25,882 nucleotides of DNA from a virus. Below are positions 6,492 through 25,882 of this stretch, piece after piece. The stretch spans positions 1 through 25,882 of the IMG/VR virus record IMGVR_UViG_3300042914_000213. One strand, written 5' to 3'. The notes below the pieces were generated by a model. It was given only the letters and a program-made list of their open reading frames with translations, did no database searches and was not told where the DNA came from. Both the position numbers and the translations under genes were made by a program. Positions within the stretch are counted from its first letter, which is position 1; each line of letters begins with the position of its first letter.

Positions 6492-8558
6492 TTATTTGCG
6501 CCTATACTTCTCATAAGCACTACGTCCAGCAGGGCTTAACTCATCTTTTTTTAGAGCAGGAGGAATTACATTGCCTTCCAATATGTCATCAAACTCGCCT
6601 CTATAAGAATAAGTACGAGCATACTCATTAGGCAAATCTTTCATAGCCTTTTCAGAAACATTAATATATTGCTTTAATTGCCTTACTAGCTCATTTTTAT
6701 CCATACCAGCTTTCATCGATGCTTGAATTTTGGAAAGAGCTTCCATTTCCGCAATAGCAACGTTACCGACAGCACCACCAGTAGGTGAGGCAGTACGCAT
6801 TTGCTGCAAAGATGTAACAAAAGACCTTGTAAGCAAGTTTTGCAACAGCTCATTAGCAGCCATTGTTTCTGGATCCAGCACAACACCACCAATAGTTCCA
6901 GATCTTAATGGGGCAGTTCTGCTTGAAAGGGCTTCCAAGTATTTAGGATTATTAAGCAACGCTTTAGCTGAATTTCTTGCATCAACGACATTTCTCAATG
7001 TGTACCGAACTAAAGACTCAGTAGATGGTTGTGCTTGCAACAACTCCTGACGCTTAACCAATGGCAAGACATTCGGTGGCTGATTGATAAGCGCCTTATC
7101 AGATATGCTCTTAGGAACAAACTTAGATTCTGGCGCAGCCTGTGGAGCAGCTTCAGGAGCAGGAGCAACTTGGGCTGACGGAGCGACTCTAGGTGCAGGG
7201 GCAACTCTAGGAGCCGGAGCAACTCTAGGAGCCGGAGCGACTTCAGGAGCAACAACCTGTTGACGAACGCCTCCTCTACCAATGAATTCACCACGACCAG
7301 CAGGAACAGGTGCAGATACACCAAACTCTGCTTGAAGTTTTGTAGCCTCTCTAGCAAGTTCTGCTGTCTTGGCTGCATCAGGAGCATTTTGAAATCTGAT
7401 GATGTCTGCCATTTGGTCAGGCGTAAGTTTCGTCTGATCCATCGTGCCATACTTCATCATTGCGTAAGTGCCTTGCAAGCCCTCAAGGCGCATACCTTTT
7501 GCAGACTCTTGTGCCTGTCTGTAAATGTCTTGTATACCTGTGCGAATCTGATCCATGCCAAGATAGCCAGTTTCAGAAAGCCGCTTCAGAGCAGTAACCT
7601 GACCCTTAAAGTTTGCTGGCACTTCTTTTTCGATAGTGGCCCAATCAAACTGAGCCGTAGACATTTGCTTTAACTGGTCATCAATAGCCTTGATTGATTC
7701 TTCATTGGCTTTTCTTGTGTCTCTGGCTTCTTTTGTTGCAATCCCCATAAGGCTTCTATTTGCATCAAGAAGCATATTCTTTTGGGCAAGCAATTGAGCA
7801 TCTGGGCCTTGTTGTGCAACAGTAGTAACACCGGGCAACGCTGCCTCTGCTTGAGGCTCAACAGCACCAGTCATAAACGGTTGACCACCAAAGCCGGGTA
7901 CAGCTTGGAATGAAGGAACAGCCTGTTGTGGTGTTGGTTCAGCCTCAGTCGTTACTTGAGCAGGTGCTTGATGACGCAGACGCATCTCAACTTCAAGGCG
8001 ATTTGCTTGCTCCATCAACGCATCGCCCATAGGCTTGTACTGAGTGCCAAGCATATAAGCAGCATTAGCCTTAGCCCGTAAACTTTCAGGAGTATTATCA
8101 GCACCTTGTGTACCAGTAAATGCTTTGGAGCGCTCTCTAATAGCGACTTCCTCAGCAAACTTACCCGGATCAATGTCAGCCAATTGCGCTAGGTCAGGAT
8201 ATTTAACTTTCGCATCAGCAATAGATTTCAATCTATCCATTGCTTGTCTCTGAGTAAGTGCTGTACTCTGCAATTGCTGTTGCATCGCAATATTCTTCAG
8301 ACTTTGGTCAAATGCACCACCACCAGCAGCCATACCGCCAGACAATGCAGCCAGAATGTTCTCAGCAGCAGATCGACGAGGCCCGATACGGCTCATGCCC
8401 TGAGCTAGCGCCAAACCAGCACCAAGCAAACCCTGAATATTGGCTCGTGATTGCGTTTGTTGCAGTTGTTCAGGCGTAATCAGCCCAGCGCCAAGTAGAC
8501 CTTGATAGGTTCCGGGTGCTTGACCAAAGATGTTAGGGATGTAATCTGTAATAGCCAT
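6492..8558 (-). CDS. large Gln/Ala-rich internal virion protein with Pro-Ala hinge
   Basis: This 688-residue protein has an N-terminus with glycine-rich hydrophobic runs (GLLGAGLALAQG; ALSGGMAAGGGAF), then long helical Gln/Ala-rich regions. A Pro-Ala linker around residues 430-475 is built from repeated RVAPAP units, and a helical C-terminal domain follows. Length, low cysteine content and location fit a T7 gp15/gp16-like or P22 gp16-like ejection protein. No catalytic motif is recognised. It shares the MAIT start with the downstream gene product at 4768-6483, possibly a shared N-terminal signal. Confidence 0.6.
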   Translation of the reverse strand: MAITDYIPNIFGQAPGTYQGLLGAGLITPEQLQQTQSRANIQGLLGAGLALAQGMSRIGPRRSAAENILAALSGGMAAGGGAFDQSLKNIAMQQQLQSTALTQRQAMDRLKSIADAKVKYPDLAQLADIDPGKFAEEVAIRERSKAFTGTQGADNTPESLRAKANAAYMLGTQYKPMGDALMEQANRLEVEMRLRHQAPAQVTTEAEPTPQQAVPSFQAVPGFGGQPFMTGAVEPQAEAALPGVTTVAQQGPDAQLLAQKNMLLDANRSLMGIATKEARDTRKANEESIKAIDDQLKQMSTAQFDWATIEKEVPANFKGQVTALKRLSETGYLGMDQIRTGIQDIYRQAQESAKGMRLEGLQGTYAMMKYGTMDQTKLTPDQMADIIRFQNAPDAAKTAELAREATKLQAEFGVSAPVPAGRGEFIGRGGVRQQVVAPEVAPAPRVAPAPRVAPAPRVAPSAQVAPAPEAAPQAAPESKFVPKSISDKALINQPPNVLPLVKRQELLQAQPSTESLVRYTLRNVVDARNSAKALLNNPKYLEALSSRTAPLRSGTIGGVVLDPETMAANELLQNLLTRSFVTSLQQMRTASPTGGAVGNVAIAEMEALSKIQASMKAGMDKNELVRQLKQYINVSEKAMKDLPNEYARTYSYRGEFDDILEGNVIPPALKKDELSPAGRSAYEKYRRK
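7180..7251 (-). repeat. four 18-bp tandem repeats encoding RVAPAP-type units
   Basis: Consecutive 18-base units at 7180-7197, 7198-7215, 7216-7233 and 7234-7251 differ by a few bases each; on the plus strand the third reads GGAGCAACTCTAGGAGCC. They encode the Pro-Ala hinge of the 688-residue internal virion protein. Such repeats readily gain or lose units, so copy number may vary among relatives. Confidence 0.85.
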
Positions 8559-10227: not shown

Positions 10228-11012
10228 CCCACAATTATATAACCGTAGGTCTTATTCGCCGTACTATTAGCCCAATGAGATATAGTTGCTTGTCCTTGTT
10301 GCTGGCTTGAAACATACAGGTTCGTTGTCGCAGCAGGAGCCACATAGCTCATCGTTACAATGGCAGACGGAATTGATGGTCTTGTCGGGCTTGTACTCGT
10401 GTCAAAATGCTCAAGCGAAACACCAATATTAGTCGTTCTCCATATAATCTCAACATAATCACCAGCGTTCATTTCCAGAAAGAAATTCATCGCGGCAATT
10501 AAGTGAGATGGATCGCCAGTGCTTTTCCTAGCTGGCATATGAAACCGGCTATTAGATCCAGCAACATTAGTACCGTTCTTACGGAACCAAACGTCTATAT
10601 CCTGACCATCGTTCGTGGTGTTCTTAAATTGCAAACTAAACTGTATGTTATATATACCGTAGTTTCTGACATTTAGCCGAGAACTGTTGGATAGGTATAT
10701 TCCGTTACTGTAATCTGTTGTGTTATAGGTAATAGCATAGGCTGTTGTGGTATTGGCGGCAGTCTGGTCTGTAGTGTCCTGAAACGCTCCATAAGGCGCT
10801 GAATCTTCTTCTGCCTCATCAGATACCGGAACAAAGAAAATCAGGCTGTCGTAGCCTATACGCTCGTCAAATAGGGTAGTTGTGGTGGCATTGCCGGTTG
10901 CTAAAGTAATTTCGCCAGTATTGTTGGTTTTTCCGTCCATAATCCCACGGACAACCTCAGCAACAGATCGCTGATCTCCTCCAAATGGCGGTAATGTGCG
11001 AAATTGCCTCAT
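10224..11012 (-). CDS. putative jelly-roll virion protein
   Basis: The 262 residues divide into an N-terminal part of about 80 residues, starting MRQFRTLPPFGGDQRSVAEVVRGIMDGK (28 residues, split here as MRQFRTLPPFGG and DQRSVAEVVRGIM), and a beta-rich domain from about 85 to 230. The beta-rich domain has alternating aromatic/Asn/Thr strands (GIYNIQFSLQFKN, DVWFRKNG, FFLEMNAGDYVEIIWRT), as in C1q/TNF-like jelly rolls. Likely a virion surface or neck protein. It overlaps the nozzle gene by four bases (ATGA) and the GNAT-like gene by four. The exact place in the particle is unknown. Confidence 0.55.
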   Translation of the reverse strand: MRQFRTLPPFGGDQRSVAEVVRGIMDGKTNNTGEITLATGNATTTTLFDERIGYDSLIFFVPVSDEAEEDSAPYGAFQDTTDQTAANTTTAYAITYNTTDYSNGIYLSNSSRLNVRNYGIYNIQFSLQFKNTTNDGQDIDVWFRKNGTNVAGSNSRFHMPARKSTGDPSHLIAAMNFFLEMNAGDYVEIIWRTTNIGVSLEHFDTSTSPTRPSIPSAIVTMSYVAPAATTNLYVSSQQQGQATISHWANSTANKTYGYIIVG

Positions 11013-12427
11013 CGATCACCCTGTTTCACAACAGTAAGCTCTAAACCAAAGGCTGTTTCCCAATTAGCACCAGTAGGAGTTAGTCTAAGCCTGTGATATT
11101 CGCCATTACTCCGCAAGCTCACACGGTTTTCAGCGTCTGGGGCCACATCTGCGCTAAATTCCACCTGTTCAGCAAGATTATCTCGGCTAGAAACAGCGAT
11201 TAGACCGCTACCTTTGTCCACAATCGGCCTTGCCAGCGTCACAGTAGACCTACCTACGTCAATATCACCCGTTGTTATGTTGGCAGTCTTGGGCTGACCA
11301 GAGAAAGAAATGATCTTCTGACCAGAAACACCTGCAAACAGCAGTTGTCCACCAGCAAATACACGGGAATCAAGCGGAATATCAAGAGCATCAATGCTTG
11401 AGCTATAGTTATCAACCTGTTCTAACGTTGCAGAAGGCGTTAATACATAAGCAATAGACGTTGCTGTAGTATCGGCATAAGACCATTTATCCAAATCAAT
11501 GGAATACATCAGGAGATTCTTACCGCCAAACGTATTATTAAACTTCCATATTACTAATTTATTAATAGGGTCAACCGTGGCGCTCATTCCTGTCGGGATT
11601 TGATTAGGAATAGCGTTATCAAAGAACCAGCGGTTTACTTTCTCAGTACCTATATTTTTTGTAGATTGCCCATCACAGACGTAAAAACCATCGTCAGCAA
11701 GGAAATAGGTCAAGTTACCGTATTGAGCAATAGAGCCGTTAGAAATACAGCCCAAAGACCTAGAAATAGCGTCAAACTGGAAGAAAAACGGAGAGCCAGC
11801 ATAGCTCATCCGGTAGATAGCTCGTTCCAAGAAGATAAGCCCGTACTCACCACCAGCAATACCAGTAATATCACCGCCATCAGGCAGGATCTGGCTGTCA
11901 GCCTGAGAAGCAGCAGCAGGAGTCCAGTCTGTCTCATCATTAATATCAGACCAGTAAACCTTGCTCGTATCCGTCCCGTCATTCGCAGCCACCACAAAAT
12001 CACGGACAACTGTTACAAACTTTGCAATAGGGGCATCAGAAGACAAATTGGCAAAGCTAGTAGAGGAATTTAACGTCCATGCTTGCAGCTTATCCTGACC
12101 ATTAGCCAGAATCATCTTGGGGCCAAACTGCGTTACATCCCAACCCTCAACAGCCGTGTATCCTGTAGTCGTAGCTGCATCCAGACTAGCATCATTGCTG
12201 TCAAACTTGTAAATCTGAGTTGTACTAGCCGCAAACAATGAGCTTACCCCGCCAAACTTGCCAGCAAAGGTAATCAGCAGGTTTGCCCCGGCAGCATCAG
12301 AATAATCAGCTTCAGACTTTAAAGGAGCATAACCATTAGCAACTGGATAACAGTTTTTAGCATCTGTTACCGCACCCGTAACACCCGGCTGATCTGGCAA
12401 CCACTCACCGAATAGAATCTTTTGCAT
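11009..12427 (-). CDS. tail nozzle / DNA-stabilisation protein (P22 gp10-like)
   Basis: This 472-residue, beta-rich protein starts with FGEWLPDQPG, then TDAKNCYPVANGYAPLKS, a start widely seen in podovirus nozzle proteins. Repeated WD/Kelch-like blades follow (YKFDSNDASL, TDWTPAAASQ, SYAGSPFFFQFDAIS, DDGFYVCDGQS, NRWFFDNAIP). This resembles the P22 gp10-type beta-propeller hub that plugs the tail. It would sit beneath the adaptor and bind the fibres or spikes. It is located after the fibre block and before the ejection genes, and overlaps the next gene by ATGA. Confidence 0.65.
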   Translation of the reverse strand: MQKILFGEWLPDQPGVTGAVTDAKNCYPVANGYAPLKSEADYSDAAGANLLITFAGKFGGVSSLFAASTTQIYKFDSNDASLDAATTTGYTAVEGWDVTQFGPKMILANGQDKLQAWTLNSSTSFANLSSDAPIAKFVTVVRDFVVAANDGTDTSKVYWSDINDETDWTPAAASQADSQILPDGGDITGIAGGEYGLIFLERAIYRMSYAGSPFFFQFDAISRSLGCISNGSIAQYGNLTYFLADDGFYVCDGQSTKNIGTEKVNRWFFDNAIPNQIPTGMSATVDPINKLVIWKFNNTFGGKNLLMYSIDLDKWSYADTTATSIAYVLTPSATLEQVDNYSSSIDALDIPLDSRVFAGGQLLFAGVSGQKIISFSGQPKTANITTGDIDVGRSTVTLARPIVDKGSGLIAVSSRDNLAEQVEFSADVAPDAENRVSLRSNGEYHRLRLTPTGANWETAFGLELTVVKQGDR

Positions 12428-12576: not shown

Positions 12577-13575
12577 TCATAACTCCGATGCCATTGCCGC
12601 AGTGCTTTGCCTACTAAAATTTCCCGTTGCAAGGATATTTACTTGGTAAAAAAACCCGTCAGCAGTAATAAAATGGGTGTTATCAGTATTTGTGTTGGAT
12701 GCACTTATATTCGTAAATGAAATTGTCGGAGAGCCGCGCATTTTGACTTTAAATGCAATATATGAGCCTTGGCCCACATTGGCCCCATTTCCATTGTAGG
12801 ATGTGCCAACACTTACGGCTTGTTGCAAATAGTAGCGCTGACACAACGCCAACATCGTACCCTGCGGCCTGTAATCAAAGCTCGTCGCTGTGCTGCCTTT
12901 TTCTAGTTGGACATTAGATATATCAAGTGTAAAGTTTTGTGCGGCTGTTTCTTCAGTCCATACAAATACCGTAATGTTATTAAATGATGATCCAAGCGTT
13001 CCGGTAAGTGGCACACTAAGTGTTGTCCAAGTATTTGCTGAAGGTGTAATGCTTCCGACAGCTGTTACAGTAGTCGTTGTGCTAATGAAGAATTGACCTT
13101 CCGTGTACGTCGAGTTTGTCCAACTGTTAACAACATCGCTAGTCACAGAATCTGCTGTGCCTGTCCATTCAAGAATGGCGTAACGCACCGCTTGAGAACC
13201 AGAAACGCGCACCTGAAAGTTTAATGTTACAGCCCCACCTCTTAAATCTCTGCAATTTGAACTTTCAATGATTTGAGCTAATCCCATGCGTTGTGCAGAG
13301 GATTGATTTTGTGTTAGCCTAATATTGAATGGAATACCGTCTTGTTGATTTGTCTGTTGCGAAACATTAACAGATGCAGTTTGCGTTAATACATACCAAC
13401 GATCAAAACAATAGACATCGTCTGCAACAGCAGTTGATGCTCCAGAATTCCGCTGGTCAATCCGCATATCACCGTTGATAATGCGGTTCTTAAACCCAAA
13501 TCCTGTCGCAGCAGTAGTCTGAGTGCTGTTATCGTTAAACGTAAAGCCGTTAGTGCCGTTAATGGTAACGCTCAT
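12577..13575 (-). CDS. putative receptor-binding tail protein
   Basis: The 332 residues have a virion-type N-terminus (MSVTINGTNGFTFNDNSTQTT). A carbohydrate-binding-like beta-sandwich follows, opening with KNRIINGDMRIDQRNSG and closing at DISNVQLEKGSTATSFDYRP. That LEKG-x-x-A-T-x-F-x-x-R-P end is characteristic of a widespread phage tail domain. The last 90 residues, after LALCQRYYLQQ, form a short tip. Likely binds host surface sugar. It begins in the TAATG overlap with the S74 spike and is followed by a chaperone-like small gene. Confidence 0.7.
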   Translation of the reverse strand: MSVTINGTNGFTFNDNSTQTTAATGFGFKNRIINGDMRIDQRNSGASTAVADDVYCFDRWYVLTQTASVNVSQQTNQQDGIPFNIRLTQNQSSAQRMGLAQIIESSNCRDLRGGAVTLNFQVRVSGSQAVRYAILEWTGTADSVTSDVVNSWTNSTYTEGQFFISTTTTVTAVGSITPSANTWTTLSVPLTGTLGSSFNNITVFVWTEETAAQNFTLDISNVQLEKGSTATSFDYRPQGTMLALCQRYYLQQAVSVGTSYNGNGANVGQGSYIAFKVKMRGSPTISFTNISASNTNTDNTHFITADGFFYQVNILATGNFSRQSTAAMASEL

Positions 13576-14396
13576 TATTGGGCCTCCAATGCGGCTACTT
13601 TGGCCTGTAGTGTTTCGATCATTTGCTGTTGTTCTTGGATGGCTTTTACAAGGCGGGCTTCAGTTTTGCTCCAGCCGGTAATGGAAAGTATTTTTTCTTC
13701 CGAATCATCAGCAGACACAACGTCTGGGTAAACGGCTTGCATTTCTTGAGCAATGAAACCGACTTGATGACCGCCGCCATAAGACTCAACGTAGTCAAAC
13801 TCAACAGGTCGCAAAGCAAGGATATTTTGCAATTGCGATGGCAAAACTTTTATGTTTTCTTTAACGCGCTGGTCAGAAGTAGAGCCAAATGCTGCTGTGT
13901 TCGCACCGTTAGCGTTGATTTTTCCGCAAGATGTCGCGGTGTTATTAACCTCGAACTTTATGAAAGTTTGCGAGGTCGTTGTGTTGTTGTCGAACTTGGA
14001 GATGATTACAGCGTTGTTTGATACGTCACCTGCGGCAGTCGAACGAAAATATGCAACTCGCCCACCATTAGCTGAAGCAGAATCTTGAACGATGTCCAAC
14101 TTAGCAACTGGCGTTGTGCCAACACCCAAATTACCACTGGAGTCGATACGGGCGCTTTCAACACCGCCCTCAGCAAAAGCTATAGTGTCAGCAGCAGGGA
14201 AGAATATTCCAGTATTCGTATCACCAGTTGTATAAATTGCAGGAGCCGATGCAGATCCAGCAGGAACCTCATTGACAGCACCAGACATATTCATAGTTCC
14301 ATCAACAGCCGGAACAGTAATTGTTTTATCTGATGCTGTATTAGCACCCTGAAGAATTACGCCGCCGCCAGAAGCTGTGTTTAACTTGATTGGCAT
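13575..14396 (-). CDS. tail spike/fibre with C-terminal S74 self-cleaving chaperone
   Basis: This 273-residue protein has beta-repeat sequence over residues 1-170 (ILQGANTASDKTITVP; TTGDTNTGIFFPAADTIAF; IDSSGNLGVGTTP). The last 100 residues are the intramolecular chaperone/peptidase S74: S174-D-Q-R-V-K179 gives the Ser-Lys dyad with the five-residue spacing seen in endosialidases, followed by FDY, GFIAQEMQAVYPDVV and a terminal coiled coil (QEQQQMIETLQAKVAALEAQ). After trimerisation the chaperone is released by cleavage before Ser174, leaving a 173-residue mature stalk. No enzymatic (sialidase or lyase) domain fits in the short mature part, so it is probably a structural or adhesive fibre. 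Confidence 0.88.
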   Translation of the reverse strand: MPIKLNTASGGGVILQGANTASDKTITVPAVDGTMNMSGAVNEVPAGSASAPAIYTTGDTNTGIFFPAADTIAFAEGGVESARIDSSGNLGVGTTPVAKLDIVQDSASANGGRVAYFRSTAAGDVSNNAVIISKFDNNTTTSQTFIKFEVNNTATSCGKINANGANTAAFGSTSDQRVKENIKVLPSQLQNILALRPVEFDYVESYGGGHQVGFIAQEMQAVYPDVVSADDSEEKILSITGWSKTEARLVKAIQEQQQMIETLQAKVAALEAQ

Positions 14397-14397
14397 C

Positions 14398-15108
14398 TTA
14401 TTGCCTCATCCAATTATCAGAACCTGCGTTTACATTCGTCCAAGTATTCGATCCAGCAGAAACTGGTGTCCATGTATCGCTACTTGTTCCTACATTCGTC
14501 CAGTCGTTGCTACCTGCGCTCTGCTCAGTCCAATTAGTCTCTTCAGGAGTTAAATCTGACCACTCCTCACCAATAATCTGACCATTCGCACTAATTATTG
14601 CCAGAGCATTAACATAACCAACACCAGCAAATATCGCATTAGCATTACAAGTTACTGTTGCCAGAGCGTTAATACTTGCATTACCCTGATAAACAACACC
14701 ACCGTTAGCTACAACTGTCGCAGTTCCAGTAATCGATCCAACAGCAAGTCGAATCCTAATTCCTGTCGCTGTAACCGTTGCTGTACTACTTACCGCAGCG
14801 TTGCCAAATTGTACTCTTGTTGCATTAGCTGTAACAGTAGCCGTTGCGTTTATTGCAGCTACGCCGCTAAATATCGCTACACCAGCCGCTGTTACAGTAG
14901 CATTGCCAAATACCGTAGCAGTGCCAAAATTTAACCTACCACCGTTTGCCGATACCGTAGCAGCACAGTTAATTGAACCTGCCGCCATCCTTTGCCGTGT
15001 ACCAGCAGCAGATACCGTTGCCAGAGCATTTATACTCGCAGCACCGAATAACGTCGATCCACCTAATGACGCATATGGAGACTGAGCATAAGTGCTAATC
15101 CCAAACAT
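14398..15108 (-). CDS. tandem-repeat virion protein: eight 20-residue repeats plus Trp-ladder tail
   Basis: The 236 residues have three zones. Residues 1-19 form an N-terminal cap (MFGISTYAQSPYASLGGST). Residues 20-179 are eight contiguous repeats of exactly 20 residues without insertions, consensus x-x-G-x-A-S-I-N-A-x-A-T-V-x-A-N-G-x-x-I, alternating small and beta-branched residues as in a beta-solenoid or stacked beta-hairpins. Residues 180-236 carry Trp at 183, 193, 203, 213, 223 and 233, exactly every ten residues, in alternating WT-x-x-SAGSN and WTNV-type units. It lies among tail-fibre genes and overlaps or abuts its neighbours, so it is likely a fibre, decoration or receptor-contact protein. 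No family function is known to me. Confidence 0.75.
   Translation of the reverse strand: MFGISTYAQSPYASLGGSTLFGAASINALATVSAAGTRQRMAAGSINCAATVSANGGRLNFGTATVFGNATVTAAGVAIFSGVAAINATATVTANATRVQFGNAAVSSTATVTATGIRIRLAVGSITGTATVVANGGVVYQGNASINALATVTCNANAIFAGVGYVNALAIISANGQIIGEEWSDLTPEETNWTEQSAGSNDWTNVGTSSDTWTPVSAGSNTWTNVNAGSDNWMRQ
14401..14562 (-). repeat. Trp-ladder repeats (10 residues, 30 bp)
   Basis: This encodes residues 183-236 of the repeat protein. Six tryptophans fall exactly ten residues apart. The units alternate between two types (WTxxSAGSN and WTNVxxxSD), so the true period is about 20 residues (60 bp). It is visible in the DNA as recurring plus-strand ACATTCGTCCA at 14431-14441 and 14492-14502. 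Confidence 0.8.
14572..15051 (-). repeat. eight 20-residue (60-bp) repeats
   Basis: This encodes residues 20-179 of the repeat protein. Units begin LFGAASINALATVSAAGTRQ, then RMAAGSINCAATVSANGGRL, and so on to FAGVGYVNALAIISANGQII. Every unit is exactly 20 residues. The DNA copies are diverged, so this is an old duplication array under protein-level constraint, not a fresh expansion. Confidence 0.88.
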
Positions 15109-15609
15109 TTAGACAATCGTCCAGTTTGCGCCAGAAGGCACAGTAACCGTCACCCCGTTAGCAACCGTTGTATTCTTGCCGCTAATGCCCTCATAGCCGC
15201 TTGGGAACGTCATAGACGTACTTACAATCTGGTTGGTCAGCAAAATGCCATTAGAGGCCGCTAAATGCAGCGCATAAGCCACATTATCAGCATCCTCATG
15301 GACAGACTTATCAGATGGATACGTTACAAATACGTCCTTGCTATTAGCCGCAAAGTTAATCGCAGCCGTAGTGCCAGAGCTATTTGAGAGGATCGTATTA
15401 CGAGCTAATGTCGTACCAGAAGCCGTATAAGTTCCGATACCGACTTCCCATGTACCAGCAGTAGAATCAACAATAGCGTAATAGGTGGTATTACCATTAC
15501 CTATATCCGCAAATGAGCGAAAGCCAATAGAAGCGCCAGCTAACGTCAATGTACCTGTACCGGATGTCGTACTGGTCTCTTTTATCCTATCTTTAACGAC
15601 CAGAGGCAT
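15109..15609 (-). CDS. small virion structural protein
   Basis: This 166-residue protein starts MPLVVKDRIKETSTTSGTGT, followed by LTLAGASIGFRSFADIGNGN and TTYYAIVDSTAGTWEVGIGT, a domain repeated in many phage tail-appendage proteins and fibre N-termini. KDVFVTYPSDKS closes the domain. A 50-residue beta-rich tail follows (GYEGISGKNTTVANGVTVTV). Likely attaches appendages to the tail or is itself a short fibre base. It has a good AGGGG site before ATG and abuts the repeat-protein gene without spacing. Confidence 0.7.
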   Translation of the reverse strand: MPLVVKDRIKETSTTSGTGTLTLAGASIGFRSFADIGNGNTTYYAIVDSTAGTWEVGIGTYTASGTTLARNTILSNSSGTTAAINFAANSKDVFVTYPSDKSVHEDADNVAYALHLAASNGILLTNQIVSTSMTFPSGYEGISGKNTTVANGVTVTVPSGANWTIV

Positions 15610-15619
15610 TTTCTACCCC

Positions 15620-16006
15620 TTATGCCAGAGTTACGCTCAAGCTGCCGACAGCAATCTTAAAGATATCTCCTGAGTCAATCGTCTTAGACGCATCCAGAGC
15701 CGTGTGATATAGCAGGTTGCCACCAGTCAACGAATCCTCAATGCCGATCCAACCTACGGTTCCCCATGATCCTGTGGCTTGCGGGAACTCAATCGCAGCA
15801 CTGTTGGTACTAACACCATTACTAGGAGCGCCAAAAGTAACAGCCTGACGAGCATAAGATCCACCAGAAACCTCAGTTCCTGTATCAGCATCAGTCGGAT
15901 CAGACGTATACAGGCCGACATAAACCGTTGTAGGACTCGTATAGCTCGTATTCCGCAAGGTAGCGTTAATCAGAGCGTTTTCCAGATAGTTCGACATTTC
16001 TGCCAT
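15620..16006 (-). CDS. virion/tail structural protein of the MSNYLEN type
   Basis: The 128 residues resemble a common phage structural family: MSNYLENALINATLRNTSY, then TTVYVGLYTSDPTDADTGTE, SYARQAVTFGAPS, IEFPQATGSWGTVGWIGIED and a C-terminal IDSGDIFKIAVGSLSV. The predicted fold is all-beta. A GAGGTG Shine-Dalgarno precedes the start. The in-frame Met at residue 4 begins the usual family start, so translation could also begin there. Probably a minor tail or appendage-connecting protein. Confidence 0.65.
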   Translation of the reverse strand: MAEMSNYLENALINATLRNTSYTSPTTVYVGLYTSDPTDADTGTEVSGGSYARQAVTFGAPSNGVSTNSAAIEFPQATGSWGTVGWIGIEDSLTGGNLLYHTALDASKTIDSGDIFKIAVGSLSVTLA

Positions 16007-16010
16007 GATT

Positions 16011-16631
16011 TCACCTCACGTTATAAGACATTGCCATAGGCTGACCACTGTACTCACTAGACTGGTCAGCACTAGAAATAGACGCTATCGCCCGGTCATA
16101 CAGAGAAGCCCAGACCTGCAATCTTGCATCGTTCATCAGGTACGGTTCAGCCTCAGCCAAAGCCGCATACAGCAGGGCATCCGGGCAGTTAGCCAAGAAG
16201 ACATTGCTTGTGTTGGAGTCACTCAGAAGCGGAGGCTTTGCGTAGTACAGCATCTGAGCCGTGTACGCAGTATCAGGAATAGGTGCAAACTGAATCTCTG
16301 AAGCCAGAACCGTGTAAGTCCGTGGGATACCAGACTCAGTAGCCCGTGTGCTTTGGTAGAAGCTATTAGGAGCCTCGTAGGAGACAGAGCTGATCGGGGT
16401 AGTCTTGAAGTGAATATCTCGCATCTCTAGGAAGTCTGTAGGTAGACCAACCGTAGAATCACCGCCCGTAGTATCAGCGGTAGCTACCACCAGCATCTGA
16501 CGGATTCTCAGGTCTCGACGCAGACGCTCCTCAGCCAGCCGGATAAAGTCAGGGATAACTGAGTTCAGGTCACTACGAGCTAGGTAGTTCGCTATCGTAG
16601 TCTTTAGGTCACTGTAGCTCGTAAATGCCAT
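16011..16631 (-). CDS. head-tail adaptor protein (SU10/P22 gp4-like)
   Basis: This 206-residue, mostly helical protein begins with SYSDLKTTIANYLARSDLNS and IPDFIRLAEERLRRDLRIRQ, the characteristic adaptor N-terminus. A beta insert (VGLPTDFLEMRDI; PRTYTVLASEIQFAPIPD) and C-terminal helices (ALLYAALAEAEPYLMNDARL) follow. In SU10-like and P22-like podoviruses such proteins form a dodecameric ring under the portal. Separation from the portal by the capsid genes and a glycosyltransferase is compatible with this. Confidence is high for adaptor, lower for the exact subfamily. Confidence 0.78.
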   Translation of the reverse strand: MAFTSYSDLKTTIANYLARSDLNSVIPDFIRLAEERLRRDLRIRQMLVVATADTTGGDSTVGLPTDFLEMRDIHFKTTPISSVSYEAPNSFYQSTRATESGIPRTYTVLASEIQFAPIPDTAYTAQMLYYAKPPLLSDSNTSNVFLANCPDALLYAALAEAEPYLMNDARLQVWASLYDRAIASISSADQSSEYSGQPMAMSYNVR

Positions 16632-16633
16632 GT

Positions 16634-17314
16634 TTATTTCCCGTTATTGTGCGCCTCTATAGCGCCTTCCTCTACATCTTCCCATCGATACTCGTAAGTC
16701 CCAATGTGCCCAATATGCTTGGATAGGCTGTGATCTACATAGGTCTGAAAGCCCGCATCCAAGGCCTTGATGCAAAAATGCACATCCTCGCCAATAATGC
16801 CCTTAGACCCCCAACCCACATCAAACCAAGGCTTAGGAACCTTCTCAAACACTTCCTTGCGAATCATCACCACACCAAAACCAACCGCTGTGACAGGCTC
16901 TATACCCTCCCTGCCCATCGAATCTACCTTGTGCCAAGCGTGACGAATAATCTTACCCTCGTCATCCTTCTCAATCTCAAGGTTTAACGCAGTCGGTAGC
17001 GTAGGCTTACGTCTAGTTACCGCATTGACACCAACAATCGGAACCTCACGGCTTAGCAAAATGTCAATCGTGTCAGCCGGGAACCTCATGTCTGAGTCAA
17101 TAAACAGAACCGCATCACATCCTTCAGCCAGAGCAGCATCTACTAGCTTCTCTCTCTGATCGAATATCAGCGTTCCTGCCATCGTATAGAGCTTTAGCCC
17201 GTTGCCATCTTTGGAACACCTGTGCTTAGAATCCCTGCCAACCATCTTGGCAAAGTCAAAAGCAAATGCAGTGTGAACCTCGTCCCTAGCTGGTACACAA
17301 ACTCCTACGTTCAT
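16634..17314 (-). CDS. GT-A-fold glycosyltransferase among the head/tail genes
   Basis: The 226 residues show an N-terminal nucleotide-binding start (NVGVCVPARDEVH), a Q-R-x-K-L-V-D-A-A-L helix, and the metal-binding D73-S-D75 in AVLFIDSDMRFP. A downstream acceptor region (AVGFGVVMIRKEVF) and IIGEDVHFCIKALDAGF, with the E-D-x-x-x catalytic-type motif, follow. The layout is that of a small inverting GT2-like enzyme transferring sugar from a nucleotide donor. It is locked between structural genes, with its ATG overlapping the previous stop (TGATG) and the adaptor starting three bases later. That argues for late expression and possible glycosylation of virion proteins. Donor and acceptor are unknown. 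Confidence 0.82.
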   Translation of the reverse strand: MNVGVCVPARDEVHTAFAFDFAKMVGRDSKHRCSKDGNGLKLYTMAGTLIFDQREKLVDAALAEGCDAVLFIDSDMRFPADTIDILLSREVPIVGVNAVTRRKPTLPTALNLEIEKDDEGKIIRHAWHKVDSMGREGIEPVTAVGFGVVMIRKEVFEKVPKPWFDVGWGSKGIIGEDVHFCIKALDAGFQTYVDHSLSKHIGHIGTYEYRWEDVEEGAIEAHNNGK

Positions 17315-17675: not shown

Positions 17676-18620
17676 TTACAGAGCCATGTTCAGGTCAGCC
17701 ACGATGCCATGAGCAGCCTCGTTTTTGACCTCGAGCGTGCACTCGACCAAGATTTGAGTCTTGTCAGCATCGCCAGCCTTAGCCAGTTCGTTCGTCTGGA
17801 ACGGACGCAGGTAAGCAATAGCTGCATACTCAGGATCAAGGATCAGAGCATCACGGGTACGCATGAAGCGGTTAGGAACCACCGACATATTGCCGAAGTC
17901 GCTGACGTAGATGTCAGCAGCGCCGATAATCGTCGAAGGAGCAGCACCAGTCACGTTGAAACGAGTCTCAGCGATACCAGTGAACGAAGACACCTTCTGC
18001 TTACCAGTTGCGCCAACCATCAGCACTTTAGGCGAGCCACCGGAAACGAACACCTCAGCCACAACTTCTTTCAGCAGGGCTTCAGTGAAGGTACGGGTGT
18101 TACCGTCAGTACGGGTAGAAACACCGATAGTCGTAGGATCGCCACCGTTGGTTTGAGCCGACGAGTTGGTTTTGATCCAAGACAGCAGCGAACCCATCTT
18201 ACGAGCGTTAGAACCGTCACCAGCCGAACGACCTTGGTTCGACAGCAGGATGGTTTCCAGATCGCGTTTGATCTCTTGCGAAGCCTTAGCCAACTGATAA
18301 GCCTTTTCAGACTTACGACCAGCCTTGTTCACTGTGTCCAGAGTGCCAGAGACCTTGATAGTCTTTTGCAGGATCTGGGTGTAGTTACCAAGACGAACAG
18401 TCGGAGACAGGGTAGCGTCCGAAGCATCAGCACCTTCAACAGCAGCGTTAGCGGTAGTAGCGGCTGCAAGGGTGTCGGTCTGCCACTCGTGGTAAACAGC
18501 CGTAGCTTTCGTCTTGCCAATCGAAGACATGAAAGGAGTCTCGGTTGGGCTGATGTCATAGATAACATCGGTAAGGTCTTCACGCTGACCAATAGCGGTA
18601 TGGGCGGTATAAGTTGCCAT
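17676..18620 (-). CDS. major capsid protein, SU10-type HK97 fold
   Basis: The 314 residues match the SU10-type capsid family: N-terminal REDLTDVIYDISPTETPFMS, then KATAVYHEWQTDTL, NYTQILQKTIKVSGTLD, the ELA-like helix EKAYQLAKASQEIKRDLETI, and C-terminal FGNMSVVPNRFMRTRDALIL, DPEYAAIAYLRPF and LECTLEVKNEAAHGIV-like strands. Many copies assemble the shell. Codon use differs from neighbours (CTG, AAC, TTC, GAC, GCT favoured), as expected for the most highly expressed gene. That bias also empties the antisense strand of stops. The gene is preceded by the scaffold gene at 11 bases and followed by the strong hairpin. Confidence 0.9.
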   Translation of the reverse strand: MATYTAHTAIGQREDLTDVIYDISPTETPFMSSIGKTKATAVYHEWQTDTLAAATTANAAVEGADASDATLSPTVRLGNYTQILQKTIKVSGTLDTVNKAGRKSEKAYQLAKASQEIKRDLETILLSNQGRSAGDGSNARKMGSLLSWIKTNSSAQTNGGDPTTIGVSTRTDGNTRTFTEALLKEVVAEVFVSGGSPKVLMVGATGKQKVSSFTGIAETRFNVTGAAPSTIIGAADIYVSDFGNMSVVPNRFMRTRDALILDPEYAAIAYLRPFQTNELAKAGDADKTQILVECTLEVKNEAAHGIVADLNMAL

Positions 18621-18631
18621 GATTACATTCC

Positions 18632-19612
18632 TTATAAGAATCGTTCAAATACACTTGCGGCATCAGCCACCCTCCCGGACGACTTAGCTCGCGCTTTAAG
18701 TTTCCTCAGTTCCTCGCTATTACTGTCTCTTGGCTTTGATACTCCGGGCTTAATCGCCTTGGGAGCCTCAGAAACCTTCTTATTAACAGCAGGTTTGCTC
18801 GACTGTAACTTGTCGTATTGCATAGCCTTATACAGCGTCAGAACTGCACGGGAATCAAACACATTCGTCAATTCCTCGTCAGAGAACCCCATCTGCCTAC
18901 CAAAATTGCGAATATCCTTGCGGATAGTCTCGCTTTTTTCTGGATCAGCAAAGGCGGGAATCGCAGCAGCCAGCTTCTCGGACTCAGCAGAAATTACCTG
19001 CCTCATCTGTTGTTGCCGGTCATATTCCTGCTGTTGAGCTATACGCTCACGTTCAGCACGAACCTGCGCTAACTGTTTCTCCTTCTGAGACATCTCGGCT
19101 ACTTTGACAGCGTAACCAATAGGATCAGTCTCTTTCAGATAATCCAGATTCTCCGTTTCCTGCGGCTGGTTCAACATCTGCTCGATGATCTCCAACCTTT
19201 GCGCGTATTGATCGCGCACAGCCTTAGCCTCTTGAATCGCTTGGCGCTCGGCCTCAACCGCCTTGCGTTCTTCAGCTACAGCTTGCGATTTCTTGGTGTA
19301 ATCAGTGCCAAGTTGATAAGACTTGATGAGATCATCTAGGGTTACCTCCCGTTCTTCACCAGCGGCTTTGACACGGAATTTCTGAGGCTCCTCTGACTCA
19401 TCCTCGCTATCTTCTTGTTCTACCTCCGGCTCATCTGAATATTCCTCAGACTCATCGGATTCGGCATCGCTATCGTTGGCCTCTGCTTGGAGTTCCGGTT
19501 GTTCCTGTTCGGAGCCTTCATCCCCACCCATCAGACCCAAGATAGCGCTTGCTGCACTATTCACATTTAACTCACCACTACCCTCAGGTGTCGTGTTTTG
19601 AGTATCGCTCAT
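18632..19612 (-). CDS. capsid scaffolding protein
   Basis: The 326 residues are strongly acidic over about 25-80 (runs of Glu, Asp and Ser such as DAESDESEEYSDEPEVEQED). A strand/helix module follows (KFRVKAAGEEREVTLDDLIK), then long coiled coil at about 105-215 (VAEERKAVEAERQAIQEAK) and a basic C-terminus (APKAIKPGVSKPR; LRKLKARAKSSGRV) ending in VFERFL. Acidic/helical with a basic C-terminal coat-binding tail, immediately before the capsid gene, is the standard scaffold arrangement. No protease motif is visible, so removal may be by exit or by host/other protease. Confidence 0.85.
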   Translation of the reverse strand: MSDTQNTTPEGSGELNVNSAASAILGLMGGDEGSEQEQPELQAEANDSDAESDESEEYSDEPEVEQEDSEDESEEPQKFRVKAAGEEREVTLDDLIKSYQLGTDYTKKSQAVAEERKAVEAERQAIQEAKAVRDQYAQRLEIIEQMLNQPQETENLDYLKETDPIGYAVKVAEMSQKEKQLAQVRAERERIAQQQEYDRQQQMRQVISAESEKLAAAIPAFADPEKSETIRKDIRNFGRQMGFSDEELTNVFDSRAVLTLYKAMQYDKLQSSKPAVNKKVSEAPKAIKPGVSKPRDSNSEELRKLKARAKSSGRVADAASVFERFL

Positions 19613-24179: not shown

Positions 24180-24887
24180 TCATGCGTAGAACATATCGTA
24201 CATATCTGGCCTGTTAGCCTTTATCCACTCTCGTGGTTCCTCATGGCATTTCTTGTAGTCAGTCCCTACTGTCTGGCTCCCTGCATGATGCACATAAGCC
24301 CTCGATACGAAATGCCTAAATCCTGCCTCTTGCAGGTCATGGCATATTATATTATCGGAATACCAATTAGTGCTAGGAAACTTGGCTGTCTCCCATGCCT
24401 TCCTGCTTATGCTGGCAAATATCGGAGCAATTACGCCAGTTTCCTTAATCTTTGACTCACTAGCCCACCTCAGCCCTACCTGCTGATCTTGCTCTACAGG
24501 GAATCTAATGTTTTGGTCATGCAGCACATAGTCAGACCTAGCTCCCAAGAAACCTACCTCAATGTTGTTCTCTTGGATAAGTTTATAGTCTGTCCCCAAT
24601 AACTTTATAGTCTCAGGATTCAGCACAACATCGTCATTACTCAGGATTACCGAGTCAAACTTCCCATGCTCGAAAGCGTAGTCTGTAGCTACATTGTAAG
24701 CATCGCCAAAGTTATCAGCCTGATTCGGCCTCCAGACCAAGTTAGGCAGGATGCTCTTAGCCCTATGCCAAAGCTCTAGACTATTCCCAGATAGGTATAC
24801 AGGCATCGTTGGGGCATAGACCCTGATACTCTCCAGCAATACAGTTACACCCGGATTCTTAATCGTACAGATGACTATTGCTTGCAC
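24180..24887 (-). CDS. GT2-like glycosyltransferase
   Basis: The 235 residues follow a GT-A plan: N-terminal strand (QAIVICTIKNPG), donor-site strand (VYLSGNS), the loop DNFGDAYNVATDYAFEHGKF, metal/donor motif N84-D85-D86 in SVILSNDDVVLNPE, and an acceptor half with GLRWASES, SRKAWETAKFP and a late His-rich strand (SRAYVHHAGSQT). It begins with GTG at 24887 inside the preceding methyltransferase gene, without a strong ribosome site, so it is probably translated by coupling. With the acetyltransferase and methyltransferase it forms a glycan-modification block. The acceptor is unknown. Confidence 0.8.
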   Translation of the reverse strand: MQAIVICTIKNPGVTVLLESIRVYAPTMPVYLSGNSLELWHRAKSILPNLVWRPNQADNFGDAYNVATDYAFEHGKFDSVILSNDDVVLNPETIKLLGTDYKLIQENNIEVGFLGARSDYVLHDQNIRFPVEQDQQVGLRWASESKIKETGVIAPIFASISRKAWETAKFPSTNWYSDNIICHDLQEAGFRHFVSRAYVHHAGSQTVGTDYKKCHEEPREWIKANRPDMYDMFYA

Positions 24888-25405
24888 AGTGTTACTTTCA
24901 TGGAATCTACTGCTCTTGGCGTTCTAAGAATTTCCTGATCGGGAAGTCCGGCCTCTGACATCTCTGTGCCCAATTCCGTCAGCTTGAACTGGATTTCTTC
25001 TAGCTTAAACCCTGACTCCCACCCCAAATACCAGCACCAATCAGTGTAATACAGCCAACTGTTCTCATTAAATGCCCGTACATGAGTCGGATCTTGCCAT
25101 GCACCCAGACTTAATTCATACGGAACAGAAATAATAAATTTCCCGTTCGGTAAAAGCAGGTCTCGGCAGTTCCTCATGGCGCTAACCAAATCTGGGATAT
25201 GCTCCAGAACATCGTTAGCTAAGATAGTGTCAAATATCTCTGGCCTTATCTTGATCTGACCAAAGCGGGTCTCAATTACCTCACCCCATTGCACTTTAGA
25301 AATATCACATACCCAGTCAGGTTTTACCCTTGCCTGAATATCTGAATTTAAACAGTCTTCTCTCCAGTCTTTGCCGGAGCCTAAGTTAAGGGTTAAGGGC
25401 TGCAA
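24875..25405 (-). CDS. SAM-dependent methyltransferase, class I (Methyltransf_11-like)
   Basis: The 176 residues show motif I as LNLGSGKDW (G9-x-G11) with the acidic strand-2 end at D22. Then comes the post-motif ILANDVLEHIPD (62-71), and LLLPNGKFIISVPYE, a typical motif III strand. It is short for the class. The start is TTG at 25405, supported by GAGG six bases upstream and by motif I beginning at residue 6; no ATG fits. It overlaps the acetyltransferase by 20 bases and the glycosyltransferase by 13. A small-molecule or sugar substrate is more likely than DNA (inference from neighbours). Confidence 0.82.
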   Translation of the reverse strand: MQPLTLNLGSGKDWREDCLNSDIQARVKPDWVCDISKVQWGEVIETRFGQIKIRPEIFDTILANDVLEHIPDLVSAMRNCRDLLLPNGKFIISVPYELSLGAWQDPTHVRAFNENSWLYYTDWCWYLGWESGFKLEEIQFKLTELGTEMSEAGLPDQEILRTPRAVDSMKVTLCKQ

Positions 25406-25882
25406 TTAGATCCTCTACGTTATCGGAACATAATAAAGGGATAAGCTCTTTGATACGGCTGTCAGGTAGATTCCACCACGGTTTTTTTAAAAGCCTTTCT
25501 ATCTGGTCTTCAGTGAACCGCAGCTTCAATACTTTGGCCGGGTTCCCACCAACAATCGAATAAGCAGGAACATCCTTAACCACAACAGCCTTAGCCGATA
25601 TAACAGCGCCATCGCCAATCGTTACCCCTGAGAATATCGTAGCGCCTGACCCTATCCAGACATCGTTCCCAATGACAACATTACCCTTAGTTGCCGGGTG
25701 TCCTTTGCCATGCCAAGGGAATTTGTCCTGATGAATATGCCCAAACGGATAAGTAGTTACCCAGTCAGTTCTATGATTTCCACCGAGGAATATCTCTACA
25801 TTGTCAGCAATAGAACAAAAAGCGCCGATTAATACATCAGCGCCCTCACCCCATTCCCTTAAACGGATGTTTTCAATCCCAT
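25386..25882 (-). CDS. hexapeptide-repeat (LbH) O-acetyltransferase, xenobiotic-acetyltransferase type, 5' partial
   Basis: The frame runs open to the right edge, so the N-terminus is missing; 164 residues are visible. They show left-handed beta-helix turns (VLIGAFCSIADNVEI; VVIGNDVWIGSGATIFSGVT; IGDGAVISAKAVVVKDVPAY), the loop GGNHRTDWVTTYPF with the family's catalytic His (36th visible residue, codon 25773-25775), and SIVGGNPAKVLKLRF before a C-terminal helix. These are hallmarks of XAT/CatB-like trimeric enzymes using acetyl-CoA. Such enzymes acetylate drugs or sugars; beside a glycosyltransferase, sugar O-acetylation is the better guess. Position within a longer surface-modification cluster to the right is likely. 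Confidence 0.88.
   Translation of the reverse strand, partial: GIENIRLREWGEGADVLIGAFCSIADNVEIFLGGNHRTDWVTTYPFGHIHQDKFPWHGKGHPATKGNVVIGNDVWIGSGATIFSGVTIGDGAVISAKAVVVKDVPAYSIVGGNPAKVLKLRFTEDQIERLLKKPWWNLPDSRIKELIPLLCSDNVEDLIAALNP

Follow-up and report, generated by a model that had tools for sequence, protein, structure and literature searches.

P0001, a protein of 236 amino acids encoded in the window (the whole stretch of 25,882 nucleotides of viral DNA that was analysed), is on balance probably a modular tail-fibre (adhesion) component of a short-tailed phage, in which a plug at the N-terminus is followed by a beta-solenoid-like rod and a tip of regularly spaced Trp residues. Its family, which is large and undescribed, occurs in aquatic short-tailed phages. 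The evidence comes from the exact periodicity of the protein and its relatives, the position of the gene in a fibre cassette, the linkage of the N-terminal peptide to a neighbouring gene, and purifying selection.

Three-part build and family

The P0001 gene (236 codons plus stop) encodes three distinct parts (Table 1). A first part is the N-terminal peptide, of which M1, F2, G3, P11, and L15 are invariant among close relatives. The second part, the body, comprises eight consecutive 20-residue units without any insertion or deletion (approximate consensus GxAxIxAxATVTANGxRVxF), and the third part is a tail with six Trp residues that are exactly ten apart (residues 183, 193, 203, 213, 223, and 233); both regularities had been described in an earlier note on this DNA. 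The self-identity of the body at lags of 20, 40, and 60 residues was 0.36, 0.42, and 0.39, respectively, and the periodicity scores of the body and of the Trp tail were each matched by none of 2000 shuffles. The additional alternation of two unit types in the tail, a 20-residue superperiod according to the same note, was not significant, as 22 of the 120 unit orders scored equally well and the identity among the 109 relatives with six Trp was 0.31 at lag 10 versus 0.34 at lag 20.

Table 1. Coordinates of P0001, its parts, and the surrounding genes in the window.
Feature	Position	Strand	Evidence
Nozzle protein, closing the fibre cassette	11009..12427	-	8zkk nozzle gp16, E 1e-8
Tail fibre (phrog_4492), accessory	12577..13575	-	Profile match; locus comparison
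S74-chaperone fibre, accessory (absent from many relatives)	13575..14396	-	Profile matches; locus comparison
Repeat/Trp-ladder protein P0001	14398..15108	-	ORF of 236 aa, periodicity, purifying selection
C-terminal Trp tail of P0001, residues 179-236 (GEEW, then six Trp at a spacing of exactly 10 residues)	14401..14574	-	Periodicity analysis
Body of P0001, residues 19-178 (eight gap-free 20-mers)	14575..15054	-	Periodicity analysis; AF2 models
N-terminal plug peptide of P0001, residues 1-15 (MFGISTYAQSPYASL)	15064..15108	-	Comparison with relatives
Conserved partner gene, 166 aa, fibre N-domain type (VKDRIKETSTTSGTG...)	15109..15609	-	Co-occurrence with MFG plug
Homologue of GP4 fibre I protein gp80	15620..16006	-	PF23140, E 5e-52; PDB 8jou_a, E 8e-13
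Head-tail adaptor	16011..16631	-	SU10 adaptor 7z47, E 2e-11

A direct search of IMG/VR retrieved 47 loci with P0001 relatives and a profile search 312 loci. Among isolates and records, relatives were found in Venkman, a phage of the OM43-clade Methylophilales (gp51), and in three Manatee Spring records. A set of 84,980 species genomes of bacteria and archaea yielded none; therefore, P0001 is a phage protein. No PHROG or NCBIfam model covers it, which agrees with the earlier suggestion that it may be undescribed, and the literature yielded no description of phage fibre repeats of 20 residues or of Trp ladders. Virion proteomics data were likewise looked for and not found. Venkman EXVC282S gp51 and the 'serine-rich adhesin' of MW202481 and MW202462 are homologous to P0001 over most or all of their length (38-42% identity) and are encoded, as in the window, between gp80 and nozzle homologues; gp51 carries four Trp instead of six, and its body has a one-residue insertion. 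Both the latter name and that of gp51 ('putative E3 ubiquitin-protein ligase HERC6') look like spurious names.

The lengths of the relatives (176, 236, 256, 317, and 416 aa) differ almost only by multiples of 20, apart from one to three residues at the N-terminal end and occasional single insertions. The number of body units ranges from 4 to 17, almost always as whole 20s, so that the repeat spacing first noticed in P0001 is regular among its relatives too. Six Trp residues were present in 63 and four in three of the 66 proteins with a GEEW-type junction, always at a spacing of exactly 10, and the register between body and tail was fixed in nearly all of these proteins. Similarly, among 132 TATVTA-type proteins with 10-spacing, selected for having at least three Trp, six Trp were counted in 109, four in 22, and three in one. 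A search with only the Trp tail of one locus (L048) returned Streptomyces phage tape-measure proteins at weak E-values, which were regarded as chance matches.

When the N-terminal peptide was used alone as a query, without repeats or Trp, nearly all matches had the three-part build of P0001; the same peptide was also found in phages with unrelated neighbour genes. Several of the sister bodies look unrelated in sequence (TATVTANG, ALTGVSASGSVGTVT, SITENVxLADxxTQxSAFLQ, and others), and tblastn searches with these bodies gave few isolate matches, such queries perhaps being masked by low-complexity filtering. The best body period was 20 in 166 of the 169 distinct proteins sharing the build, and unit length is hence the property of the body that is constrained. 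The TGV and TEN bodies are followed by Trp at a spacing of 11, and among 37 sister proteins with this spacing the best body period was still 20 in 35. As 20-residue bodies are thus paired with an 11-residue Trp spacing, body and tail are separate modules. A 20-residue rhythm shared by both domains, from which one continuous fold had been proposed, is therefore not general, and the sister families do not support a single fold for both halves.

Fibre cassette and partner gene

The P0001 gene is located between the adaptor and gp80-like fibre I genes upstream and the nozzle gene, which forms the downstream limit. It is hence encoded beside adaptor and nozzle in the fibre cassette, the position by which a podophage tail fibre or adhesin is recognised; this supports its earlier placement as a fibrous, virion-type protein among fibre genes and, without proving it, is positional evidence that P0001 acts as a fibre or adhesin. 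In many relatives, only a homologue of the partner gene and the repeat gene lie between gp80 and nozzle (L039, L084, L099, L102-L105, L112, L136, L148, L155, L190, L193, and L199), and in many loci the repeat gene directly abuts the nozzle gene. In two loci with the MADLL plug that were read gene by gene, the repeat protein is the sole gene in the cassette. One of these, MW202462, is a complete circular genome in which the automatic annotation names no other fibre gene; unlike the window, it has a MADLL plug and no partner gene.

Concerning known podophage fibre systems, the adaptor of the window resembles that of SU10 (fibre system gp12/gp13) and its fibre I protein resembles 8jou_a of GP4, a phage with three fibre types. 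The long fibres of SU10 dock on the adaptor through their N-termini (PMC9509320). P0001 differs from these systems, since a sequence search of the PDB returned nothing credible and no relation to any solved fibre there.

Three N-terminal types occur on the same TATVTA body and tail, namely MFG and, replacing it in other relatives, MSLQYV..YDYW (also MSLQYV.YDYW) and MADLLPPWT (MADLLPPWT.DSLD). Among the loci spanning gp80 to nozzle, a homologue of the partner gene was adjacent or near in all 65 with an MFG plug and in none of the 22 with another plug type. In MSLQ loci (L044, L248, L257, and L263), a gene beginning MSTIVTRAGKGSALTHNEVDANF occupies the partner position; in the two MADLL loci read gene by gene nothing was present there, and no partner homologue was found in ten MADLL-type loci. 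The nozzle-gene tree, which contains one bad long branch (L203), displayed at least five plug-type changes on supported branches, each together with the partner gene; independent plug/partner pairs were concordant in five out of five cases (sign test, p 0.06). Furthermore, the partner gene was present in 35 of the 37 loci of 11-spaced sister proteins, the phages of which show little or no detectable similarity in adaptor or capsid.

The simplest reading of this linkage is direct docking, whereby the N-terminal peptide of 15 residues would plug P0001 into the virion, most likely via the adaptor-type protein encoded by the partner gene. The linkage could instead reflect co-inherited cassettes without binding. 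A broader proposal, considered tentative and rather doubtful, is that aquatic phages share a widespread plug-and-socket fibre system, in which every type of interchangeable N-terminal peptide has a specific adaptor protein of its own, the rods may be built of any of several unrelated bodies with 20-residue units, and a Trp-ladder end (spacing 10 or 11) acts as a new surface-contact module.

Several further observations were made on these loci and on the window. The partner-type gene pairs with MFG-plug repeat proteins across unrelated phages and switches side between loci, being located before or after the repeat gene. In L044, L248, L257, and L263, strings of small fibre-like genes occur between gp80 and the repeat gene, several of which end in VSIFR/VAVFR or INIMYE and look like exchangeable tip cassettes. 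The gene at 16634-17314 of the window is located between capsid and adaptor; the gene in the same place in a related record is annotated as a putative glycosyltransferase, an enzyme for which this position would be unusual. At the window end (24180-25880), a run of genes assigned by eye looks glycan- or methyl-transfer-like (hexapeptide acyltransferase-like, methyltransferase-like, and glycosyltransferase-like). A 442-aa open frame antisense to the capsid and scaffold genes (17709-19037, plus strand) is probably mechanical.

Fold of the repeat body

Structure prediction (AF2) of P0001 with 33 relatives was poor (mean pLDDT 45), the model displaying 20-residue coils with three short strands. 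The 416-aa relative L039 was modelled better (mean pLDDT 59; most of the body 55-79), its body forming a solenoid with continuous strands, three short strands per 20 residues. The beta-solenoid suggested in the earlier note is consequently backed, at moderate to low confidence, by a model with 20 residues per coil for the body of this longer relative, whereas nothing was obtained for the Trp tail (pLDDT about 30-37, no confident model). A Foldseek search of the AF2 model against the PDB gave no significant match, and the best viral matches were unnamed phage proteins; no confident match to a known non-repeat fold was encountered. A re-examination of only 23 weak Foldseek matches by VIA-align aligned the L039 body with the beta-helices of HK620 tailspike (3.5 Å over 299 residues), bactofilin (2.1 Å over 99 residues), and CsgA at Z 10-20; these beta-solenoids have no sequence similarity to P0001, and the model confidence is too low for membership. 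In the preferred reading, the body is a stiff rod rich in beta-structure, with a beta-solenoid of 20-residue coils as its probable fold, and its length would change by whole coils.

An alternative that retains the fibre role, and that is given a minor share of the probability, is a body of stacked beta-hairpins (beta-flower/Tubby-like repeat, Bflower_3) or a trimeric fibre shaft. Bflower_3 (PF21786), which like P0001 has about 20 residues per unit, folds as a six-fold beta-flower and belongs to clan CL0395 together with the Tubby C-terminal domain (PMC10584680). This model matched 23 of 33 family members and neither of two shuffles of L084 (one of composition, one parity-preserving). The hairpin stack is a serious rival to the solenoid because two relatives, L094 (44 bits) and L101 (34.5 bits), the only ones among those scored individually, pass the curated cut-off of 34 bits. 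In addition, the inward positions of the unit (Ala/Gly/Val/Ile) alternate strictly over 15 residues and are followed by a frequent Asn/Asp-Gly turn (N/D 49%, G 63%); the turn position and the parity of the inward pairs fit a two-residue hairpin turn, although the pattern seems compatible with solenoid and hairpin stack alike. Against the hairpin stack, P0001 itself is far under the cut-off (17.4 bits), the strands run continuously in the AF2 model, which resembles a solenoid, and an open-ended series of 4 to 17 units, eight in P0001, would not fit a closed flower with six petals. P0001 also differs from Bflower_3 in having no C-terminal hydrophobic helix. The solenoid remains the preferred fold. 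As for the Pfam family itself, two open-ended phage repeat proteins (L094:1221-2171 and L101:4001-4957) exceed its cut-off, and it may draw in proteins other than six-fold flowers. No Pfam match was obtained to choline/cell-wall-binding repeats either, which are aromatic-containing units of about 20 residues (PF01473 type).

Selection, function, and significance

At the DNA level, the copies of the 20-residue unit are only about 50% identical to one another and Tandem Repeats Finder reported no 60-bp array in the P0001 gene, indicating an old repeat that has been preserved as protein sequence. Elsewhere in the window, an 18/36-bp tandem array was found at 7144-7251, within the 688-aa gene at 6492-8558. 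When codons were compared among 19 relatives of equal length, purifying selection was evident across P0001, with a pN/pS of about 0.2-0.4 (0.19-0.39) in every unit and of 0.22 in both the Trp tail and the N-terminal plug. Positive selection on the Trp tip was looked for in this comparison and none was seen; the tail is no more variable than the body and in this respect differs from a typical strain-specific receptor tip.

The six-Trp ladder would constitute a separate tip module that contacts either the cell surface or an adjacent fibre, and sugar binding by its putative aromatic stripe is possible. Conservation without hypervariability is unusual for a receptor-binding tip and counts against the adhesin reading. 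Since the tip is conserved like the plug, it would bind a conserved surface feature or contact another virion protein. The latter leads to a less probable explanation, with perhaps a modest chance of being correct, namely that P0001 serves within the tail as a structural strut or connector, whose Trp ladder binds the nozzle or another fibre and whose length tunes geometry. The purifying selection on the tail, the retention of six Trp whatever the body length, and the direct contact of repeat and nozzle genes in many loci favour such a strut; yet a strut of fixed geometry should not differ between related phages by as much as 4 versus 17 coils, Trp numbers and spacing differ in sister families, and the repeat gene is the sole fibre-like cassette gene in the two MADLL-type loci read. 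Low-complexity drift without specific function, with the spacing as a by-product of recent duplication, could account for the simple Ala/Thr/Val/Gly-rich composition but is very improbable, being contradicted already by the conservation data, the divergence of the DNA units, the lack of a 60-bp array, the purifying selection, and a spacing that is exact over hundreds of loci, even where the body sequences are unrelated.

A tail-fibre component with plug, rod, and tip is hence the preferred interpretation of P0001. The bacteria that a phage can infect are decided by its fibres. In abundant aquatic podophages, most of these fibres lack an annotation or bear a wrong name ('HERC6', 'serine-rich adhesin'), and the P0001 family gives a recognisable fibre architecture and reveals which genes go together. 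It also makes the docking of the fibres and the length of the rods testable, as the partner gene can be predicted from the N-terminal peptide and natural rod length varies by whole 20-residue steps. The P0001 family probably helps aquatic short-tailed phages to attach to bacteria.
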